A stretch of 64,000 nt of DNA from contig NZ_CP081150.1 in assembly GCF_019665765.1 (NCBI RefSeq), forward strand, positions 186,001 through 250,000. Direction: 5' to 3'. The position numbers and the translations under genes were made by a program. Positions 16,951 through 60,157 of the stretch are shown in pieces. Within the stretch, counting starts at the first letter, position 1. Every line of letters starts with the position of its first letter. The notes under the pieces were generated by a model, which did no database searches, was not told the origin of the DNA, and was given only the letters and a program-made list of their open reading frames with translations. The DNA is from Deefgea tanakiae. GTDB lineage: Bacteria; Pseudomonadota; Gammaproteobacteria; Burkholderiales; Chitinibacteraceae.

Positions 16951-17011
16951 TTTTGATAGATTGTATGCGGCGCTGTTGAAGCGCCGTTTTACTGTTTGAA
17001 AGGAATAAATA

Positions 17012-18823: not shown

Positions 18824-18850
18824 TTGTACATTTTGTACAATTTGTACAAG
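18824..18850 (+). promoter_or_regulatory. Triple 9-bp TTGTACA repeat upstream of acpP
   Basis: Three head-to-tail 9-mers (TTGTACATT, TTGTACAAT, TTGTACAAG), each with a palindromic TGTACA core, precede the probable -10 hexamer TAGAAT (18888-18893) of acpP. The arrangement looks like a multi-site operator or activator platform; the regulator is unknown. Confidence 0.5.
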
Positions 18851-18945: not shown

Positions 18946-19185
18946 ATGGAAAACCTAGAACAACGCGTGAAGAAGATCGTTGCTGAGCAACTCGGCGTGC
19001 CAGAAACTGACGTTAAGATTGATTCATCATTCGTAAACGACCTCGGCGCCGACTCACTCGACACCGTTGAACTCGTTATGGCACTTGAAGAAGAATTCGA
19101 GTGCGAAATCCCTGACGAAGATGCAGAAAAGATCACTACAGTTCAGCAAGCTGTTGACTATGTGTCAGCTCACCTGAGCAAGTAA
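18946..19185 (+). CDS. acpP: Acyl carrier protein
   Basis: 79 aa, acidic. Carries acyl chains on the 4'-phosphopantetheine attached to the Ser of GADSLDTVE. The ATG at 18946 gives [18 protein letters not shown]; a longer in-frame start at 18820 lies inside the repeat and promoter region and is rejected. It has its own terminator, so a separate strong acpP transcript is likely. Confidence 0.97.
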
Positions 19186-19197
19186 TTCAGTACGTCC

Positions 19198-19240
19198 CGA
19201 CCTCCGTTGCGGCACGCTTGTGTCGTCGCGGGGGTTTTTT
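19198..19240 (+). terminator. Terminator after acpP
   Basis: ACCTCCG pairs with CGGGGGT (one G-T wobble) around an interior that also pairs partly, followed by TTTTTT. Confidence 0.8.
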
Positions 19241-19309
19241 CATATTTAGCCCGATGAAAGAATAGGATGCGCTCGCCTTTGCTGAGCGAACTTAATTTCA
19301 TCGGTGCCG

Positions 19310-19388
19310 CCGGGAATGCCCGGTATTTATATTTGATACGGCTGGGAATACCCAGCTGCTTATTATATACGGCCGGGTGTGCCCGGCC
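19310..19388 (+). promoter_or_regulatory. Three phased hairpins in the fabF leader
   Basis: Hairpin 1 is CCGGG-AATG-CCCGG (19310-19323), hairpin 2 is GCTGGG-AATA-CCCAGC (19341-19356) and hairpin 3 is GGCCGGG-TGTG-CCCGGCC (19371-19388). Starts are 31 and 30 bp apart, stems grow from 5 to 6 to 7 bp, and all loops are 4 nt. The last one ends seven bases before the fabF ribosome-binding site. Confidence 0.65.
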
Positions 19389-19405
19389 TTCAGCGGAGTT
19401 ACCCC

Positions 19406-20647
19406 GTGTCTAAACGCAGAGTAGTTGTCACCGGCTTGGGCCAAGTTTCCCCAGTTGGCAATGATGTTGCCACTGGCTGGGCCAACCTGCTAGCTGGTCA
19501 ATCCGGCATTGATTTAATCACTCGCTTTGACCCGAGTGATATGGGTTGCCATGTTGCAGGTCAAGTGAAAGATTTCGACGTTTCACAATACGTGAACCCA
19601 AAAGACGCACGCCGTATGGATGACTTCATCCATTACGGCATTGCTGCGGCGATGCAAGCAATTAGCGATGCAGGTTTGGATGAGATTACTGATCTCGATA
19701 AAACCCGCGTTGGCGTGAATATCGGTTCGGGTATTGGTGGTTTGCAATTGATTGAGCAAACCAATGCAGCCTACATCGAAGGCGGTACGCGCAAAATCGG
19801 CCCGTTCTTTATTCCTGGCTCATTGATCAATATGATCGCTGGTCACGTATCCATTATGAAAGGCTATCAAGGCCCAAGTTATGGCATCGTTTCGGCGTGT
19901 ACCACGGGTGCGCACAGCATTGGTGATGCTGCGCGGATTATCCAATATGGCGATGCCGATGTGATGATTGCTGGCGGTGCTGAAGGCACGATTTGCAAAA
20001 TGGCAATCGGTGGCTTTGGCGCGATGAAAGCCTTGTCGACGCGTAACGACGATCCAAAAACAGCTTCACGTCCGTGGGATAAAGGCCGTGATGGTTTCGT
20101 GATGGGCGAAGGCGCGGGTGTTTTGGTGCTCGAAGAGTACGAACACGCTAAAAAACGCGGCGCAACGATTTACGCTGAACTTGCTGGCTTCGGCATGAGT
20201 TCCGACGCACATCACATCACTGCGCCAAGCGCCGAAGGCCCAGCGCGTGGCGTAGCGAACGCACTGCGTGATGCTGGCGTCAATCCAGATCAAGTGCAAT
20301 ACGTGAACGCACACGGTACTTCAACGCCATTGGGTGATGCGAACGAAACCAATGCATTGAAAATTGCCTTTGGCGATCACGCTAAGAAATTAGTCGTTAA
20401 CTCAACGAAATCAATGACCGGCCATTTGTTGGGCGGCGCGGGGGGTGTTGAAGCGATTTACTCGATCTTGGCGCTGCACAATCAAGTGTCGCCACCGACA
20501 ATTAACTTGCACGAGCAAGATTTTGAGTCAGGCTGCGATCTAGATTATTGCGCCAATACTGCGCGTGATATGAAGATCGATGTTGCGATCTCCAATTCAT
20601 TCGGCTTTGGCGGCACCAACGGTACGCTGGTGTTTAAGAAAGTCTAA
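19406..20647 (+). CDS. fabF: Beta-ketoacyl-ACP synthase II
   Basis: Elongating condensing enzyme. 413 aa from the GTG at 19406, giving [22 protein letters not shown] lies 8 bp upstream. An earlier in-frame ATG at 19379 would fall inside the third leader hairpin. The active-site Cys is in [11 protein letters not shown], with histidines in [11 protein letters not shown] and [11 protein letters not shown]. Ends [15 protein letters not shown]. Confidence 0.96.
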
Positions 20648-59723: not shown

Positions 59724-59836
59724 AGCTGGATTGCGCAGCCGAGCGGCGTAACGTCGATAGGCTGACGGGGCGACCTGTAATAGCTTGCAGATCGGCTCGA
59801 CCCCGTGCTGCTCACGGTGGGTATCGATGAATCCTC

Positions 59837-60157
59837 TTACGATTTCAAGCGGCGGTCGAGCTCCGCCTGTGCGAAATACGCGCTGGCCAGTCGCAGAATT
59901 TCGTTGGCTTTTTTAAGTTCGCGCACTTCGCGTTCTAGCGCTTTAATGCGTTCGTTCTCTGCTGAATTTTTGTTGGCTTGAACGGTATCGCCACCTTGCC
60001 GACAGCACCATGTGCGCAGCGTTTCTGGCGTGCAGCCTATTTTGCTGGCAATTGAAACGAGGGTTGCCCATTCAGATGGATATTCGGCAAGGTGCTCAAT
60101 GACCATGCGAACAGCCCGTTCGCGGACTTCGGGGGAAAAGTGAGTTGATTTCTTCAT
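59837..60157 (-). CDS. IS3-family OrfA
   Basis: 106 aa. HTH region [20 protein letters not shown] with [15 protein letters not shown], then a leucine-zipper-like [20 protein letters not shown]. Partner of the downstream OrfB; different IS subgroup from the element at 32238. Confidence 0.92.

Follow-up and report, generated by a model that had tools for sequence, protein, structure and literature searches.

Tandem expansion of a short intercistronic hairpin before fabF in Deefgea tanakiae

The acpP-fabF mRNA of Salmonella undergoes processing, and a cut between the two genes has been offered to explain why the two cistrons decay partly independently (PMC8096218). RNase E prefers RNWUU motifs within AU-rich, unstructured RNA (PMC5222698). 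A 5′ hairpin stabilises the bla mRNA, and 5′ stem-loop studies on ompA and papA are cited in the same review, but sequestering the 5′ end gives no stabilisation to the rpsO and lacZ mRNAs (PMC3997798). Thus, protection by a 5′ hairpin is not automatic.

Here, we examine the acpP-fabF spacer of Deefgea tanakiae within the window, the whole 64-kb stretch of DNA that was analysed. The gene pair is the same as in the Salmonella dicistron, and the host belongs to another bacterial class; the likeness is drawn from the gene pair, and cleavage of the present spacer is presumed. The region holds the following features.

18946–19185, forward strand: acpP, acyl carrier protein of 79 aa, the upstream neighbour (ORF and tblastn against relatives).
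19199–19240, forward strand: acpP intrinsic terminator, a long GC hairpin followed by a T run (fold).
19249–19307, forward strand: variable second hairpin, imperfect, with the outer stem CGATGAAA ... TTTCATCG (fold).
19309–19324, forward strand: HP1, five Watson-Crick pairs and one G-U, loop AATG (sequence and pair count).
19325–19338, forward strand: A+T-rich spacer 1, with two RNWUU motifs at it, GUAUU (19323) and AUAUU (19329) (sequence).
19339–19358, forward strand: HP2, six Watson-Crick pairs, or eight counting G-U and the outer pair, loop AATA (fold).
19359–19370, forward strand: A+T-rich spacer 2, free of RNWUU motifs (sequence).
19371–19388, forward strand: HP3, seven Watson-Crick pairs, loop TGTG, adjacent to the Shine-Dalgarno and the extra unit of this species (sequence and relatives).
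19393–19398, forward strand: fabF Shine-Dalgarno GCGGAG, AGCGGAG being kept in the genus (sequence).
19406–20647, forward strand: fabF, beta-ketoacyl-ACP synthase II, with a GTG start (ORF and genus comparison).

Both genes are well conserved, acpP with 89–100% identity across the family relatives by tblastn and fabF with 96–97% within the genus, counted from residue 2. The acpP terminator is kept in all same-genus spacers and in most of the family, and the three hairpins lie downstream of it, in line with the initial annotation. The second hairpin varies in length and sequence with the species, and its counterparts in spacers L011–L016 differ in sequence.

Three other elements of the region were observed on the way. 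In several genera (for example in spacers L024, L036 and L033), the stem of the acpP terminator is followed by a conserved block, TTGTTCCATCTGGC. At window positions 18824–18849, upstream of the acpP promoter, TTGTACA is repeated three times with overlap (TTGTACATTTTGTACAATTTGTACAA), which looks like a candidate operator array; the repeats are present in D. tanakiae (G000) and its sister species G004 and G006, absent from the other four congeners and without a second genomic copy at up to one mismatch. Before the fabF start, a conserved C run (CGGAG...CCCCGTG, window positions 19393–19408) can, in many family members, pair with the GG of the Shine-Dalgarno, a possible mini-hairpin over the start site.

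The three 4-nt-loop hairpins described initially are read directly in the sequence: CCGGG-AATG-CCCGG at 19310–19323, GCTGGG-AATA-CCCAGC at 19341–19356 and GGCCGGG-TGTG-CCCGGCC at 19371–19388. In keeping with that description, their starts lie 31 and 30 bp apart, the gaps between them are A+T-rich, and the last ends beside the fabF ribosome-binding site. The centres lie 32 and 31 bp apart, and HP3 ends 6 nt before GGAG (19395–19398). The reported growth of the stem by one base pair at each step holds only for uninterrupted Watson-Crick pairs and is an artefact of counting them alone, since the stems measure 6, 8 and 7 once G-U and outer pairs are included.

The three hairpins are real and beyond chance. 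When three loop-4 hairpins within 90 bp were required, no such set arose in 20,000 dinucleotide-shuffled spacers or in 30 shuffled whole windows, and the acpP-fabF array was the sole such cluster in the 64-kb window. Independently, a repeat search here returned a family of 27-nt direct repeats, with copy identities of 63% and 74%.

The same hairpin was sought genome-wide, as had been suggested, and, across the 3.56 Mb of the genome, is confined to this spacer. No second site was found for the HP3 pattern, the HP2 unit has no other copy at up to three mismatches, and the 171-bp spacer only short chance matches elsewhere. A general 5-bp hairpin pattern occurs at 17 sites and its reversed control at 9; of the 17, only the acpP-fabF three fall less than 100 bp from one another. 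Two same-genome matches elsewhere are chance matches to codons for chitinase-type DWEYP, the GH18 chitinase motif, and two in G006, one in a fumarase-like gene and the other in a repetitive, probably coding region, look like coding coincidences.

Dispersed palindromic repeats of the REP/BIME kind are similarly short, GC-rich, tandem and intergenic, but they are expected in many genomic copies whereas the fabF hairpins are restricted to one spacer, so this identity was rejected. The Rfam covariance models for riboswitch and leader families, searched as permissively as E = 5, matched nothing relevant, and literature searches turned up no account of a hairpin in a fabF leader. Elsewhere in the window (59766–59882, reverse strand), Rfam matches an ALIL pseudoknot with 110 bits, a frameshift element typical of IS3-family insertion sequences.

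The comparison of spacers took in seven genus genomes and about 37 further members of the family, and a kindred hairpin appeared in all the genus spacers and in some other genera. A short hairpin stands before the fabF Shine-Dalgarno in 7 of 7 genus genomes, where the spacer length ranges over 157–220 nt. D. tanakiae has three copies, G004 two, and G006, G001, G002, G003 and G005 one each. The G004 counterpart of HP1 is GCCGG-CTTGC-CCGGT, and spacer 1 resembles the G004 counterpart TATTTTATTGATGC. HP2 matches the last hairpin of G004 and the single one of G006, GGCTGGG-GATA-CCCAGTT, which is closed by G-U. The remaining four share AACCGG-CACAGT-CCGGTT, an energetically weak hairpin with z near 0, supported by position and pairing only.

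The family relatives often carry just one short hairpin about 6–9 nt 5′ of the fabF Shine-Dalgarno, clear in 4 of the 11 sampled genera. Its position is equal but its sequence is other in the congeners and in genera g6 (for example, GCCGGC-TAGAC-GCCGGT or AGCCGGC-GCTG-GCCGGCT), g8 (TGGCC-TATAT-GGCCA, TGGCC-TATAT-GGTCA and TGGTCCT-TTAT-AGGGCCA) and g11 (CCGGCAC-GATA-GTGCCGG). In the spacers of g2, g3, g5, g7 and g9, the hairpin is absent or weak. Hence, it is neither universal nor essential for fabF.

The stems change in the manner of RNA, with compensatory and G-U substitutions, and the proposed covariation test points the same way. MAFFT misaligned a set of nine hairpins, and the pairs were therefore scored on seven rows of equal length, comprising orthologues and copies. 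Covariation reached 0.463 against 0.260 in shuffles, with none of 500 as high, and 95.9% of pair cells were in standard pairing against 85.6%; since the rows are few, related, inclusive of paralogues and preselected as hairpins, both values are support rather than proof. Four pairs are altered on both sides in this set, and sliding the pairing partners abolishes the signal.

Between HP2 and HP3, three stem bases differ with all the pairs intact, which has a chance of 0.024 under random changes. The G-U substitutions in the stems of G006 and g8 are expected for an RNA but not for a DNA palindrome. As the pairing is preserved through stem changes, the hairpin is an RNA element that has been tandemly duplicated in this lineage, and it seems to be held folded by selection. 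The duplicated module perceived at first sight is borne out by the copy numbers of the sister species, which are 3, 2 and 1.

The separate stems have energies of −8.0, −9.7 and −14.5 kcal/mol for HP1, HP2 and HP3. In the lowest-energy fold of 19303–19395, HP1 instead pairs along its length with HP3 to make one long hairpin with HP2 at its tip, at −47.2 kcal/mol against −35.7 for the three hairpins apart (z = −5.0 versus shuffles). Both forms draw on identical bases, and the equilibrium probability of local HP1 or HP3 is about 0.001; during transcription, the local hairpins would form first. Among the 20 intergenic segments upstream of a Shine-Dalgarno in the window, fabF ranks second in hairpin stability after fabD.

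Opening the fabF Shine-Dalgarno costs 3.63 kcal/mol when the hairpins are present and 3.66 when all three are removed in silico. They are therefore no thermodynamic gate of the ribosome site, the suggested control of fabF translation is not supported, and sequestration of the Shine-Dalgarno, a ribosome-site switch and a thermometer were all rejected. Consensus searching finds no promoter-like site in the spacer, so a separate fabF leader transcribed from a promoter of its own gains no support.

Our preferred reading, put forward tentatively, is that the hairpins act as passive stem-loops between the two cistrons, setting the fabF message apart from that of acpP and protecting it. A short stem-loop is retained directly 5′ of the fabF ribosome-binding site in the genus and some related genera, and a unit of about 31 bp, an A+T-rich spacer plus hairpin, has been tandemly duplicated to give three in this species. 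Transcripts reading through the acpP terminator may be cut by RNase E in the spacer, and a stem-loop left on or close to the resulting 5′ end would slow the 5′-end-dependent attack of RNase E. It may also hold bulky upstream structures off the ribosome-binding site. fabF mRNA would then decay separately from acpP mRNA, and the additional copies may supply back-up protected ends.

The position 5′ of the Shine-Dalgarno, the fixed pairing with free sequence, the unaffected access to the ribosome site and the A+T-rich gaps fit such a passive stem-loop on fabF mRNA that arises by processing or read-through. The processed Salmonella dicistron, the two RNWUU motifs at spacer 1 and a conserved hairpin in the fabH-fabD spacer also speak for it. 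The ompA, papA and bla stem-loops (PMC3997798) are alike in being short and GC-rich, in preceding the Shine-Dalgarno and in keeping structure over sequence, which the stem energies, the distance of HP3 from GGAG, the covariation and the constant position show for fabF. The fabF hairpins differ in that they are tandem, lie between two genes and are known from sequence. Several points weigh against the proposal: spacer 2 has no RNWUU motif, the hairpin is absent or weak in several genera, the rpsO and lacZ mRNAs gain nothing from a sequestered 5′ end, HP1 pairs at equilibrium with HP3 in place of local folding, and the unchanged Shine-Dalgarno access without hairpins deprives its insulating part of thermodynamic support.

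The main rival, quite possibly correct, is that only the hairpin adjacent to the Shine-Dalgarno matters, the two further copies being neutral by-products of slippage or recombination. The flanking genes give the tree (G004,(G000,G006)) with strong support, and the two- and three-copy states are restricted to this clade, within which the copy number is unstable; the free variation of spacer length in the genus agrees. HP1-spacer-HP2 of D. tanakiae aligns with both G004 hairpins, and HP3 is a unit inserted before the Shine-Dalgarno. On one simple account, the clade ancestor would have had two copies, with a gain in D. tanakiae and a loss in G006; independent gains would be equally possible.

The neutral origin of the extra copies sits less well with their divergence, as loops and spacers have drifted (63–74% identity between copies) yet every stem is paired, one change being two-sided (U-A versus C-G). 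Such retention of pairing has a chance of about 0.02–0.07 per comparison, and HP1 is retained in both D. tanakiae and G004.

Alternatively, the hairpins may be tandem weak attenuators, each slowing or terminating RNA polymerase by a hairpin and T-rich tail, so that the array backs the acpP terminator and meters the read-through to fabF. A loose scan for intrinsic terminators lists HP1, HP2 and the variable hairpin (5 in the region against 0.7 expected), and TTTT follows the single hairpins of G001–G003, G005 and g6. However, HP3 fails the scan and is followed by TTCAGCGG, the tails of HP1 and HP2 are mixed A/T (ATTTATATTT and CTTATTATAT) with no T run adjoining the stem, and a terminator abutting a Shine-Dalgarno would be unusual. 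We consider this unlikely.

A bolder reading is that the copy number of the Shine-Dalgarno-adjacent hairpin serves as an evolutionary dial, fabF output relative to acpP being tuned by gain or loss of units made of a stem-loop and an RNase E spacer. To this we give a slightly smaller chance than to attenuation.

It is very unlikely that the long and the local forms alternate as an RNA switch or make an RNase III site. The 11.5 kcal/mol advantage of the long form, its z score and the scarcity of local HP1 and HP3 speak for it, but a palindrome copied in tandem can always pair with its own copies, making the long form a by-product of duplication; it is also impossible in one-copy species, and the Shine-Dalgarno opens at 3.6 kcal/mol either way.

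Least probable of all is a DNA operator array bound by a dimeric repressor at three palindromic half-site pairs, because the relatives vary the loop length (4, 5 and 6) and break the DNA symmetry with G-U pairs, the unit has no further genomic copy at up to three mismatches and the spacer no promoter-like site, even though every unit forms a perfect palindrome at the DNA level and successive centres stand 3.05 and 2.95 helical turns apart, hence in phase at three turns. CsrA/RsmA binding was dropped on inspection, as GGA lies at the stem-loop border in two of the three hairpins but not in the Shine-Dalgarno-adjacent HP3.

The fabF hairpins have a comparable conserved counterpart in the same cluster.

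16961–16990, forward strand: fabH-fabD spacer hairpin, GCGGCGC ... GCGCCGT, before the fabD Shine-Dalgarno (fold and relatives).

It is kept with similar sequence in 7 of 7 genus genomes and in both g6 genomes whose spacer was recovered. Like the fabF hairpins, it is GC-rich, stands just 5′ of the next gene's Shine-Dalgarno and is conserved in the genus and g6; unlike them, it is single, better conserved in sequence and followed by TTTTAC. Intercistronic hairpins are thus a habit of this cluster.

In summary, the fabF array is real: an element of an ordinary kind has expanded in tandem in this one lineage, and its job is most likely routine insulation or protection of the message. If the copies matter, sister species offer a natural series of one, two and three units before one gene, from which the number of stem-loops required at an mRNA end could be gauged. 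If the copies have no effect, the array is a clean case of a palindromic RNA element that has multiplied neutrally in tandem. In both cases, the fab-cluster spacers in this group bear conserved intercistronic hairpins.
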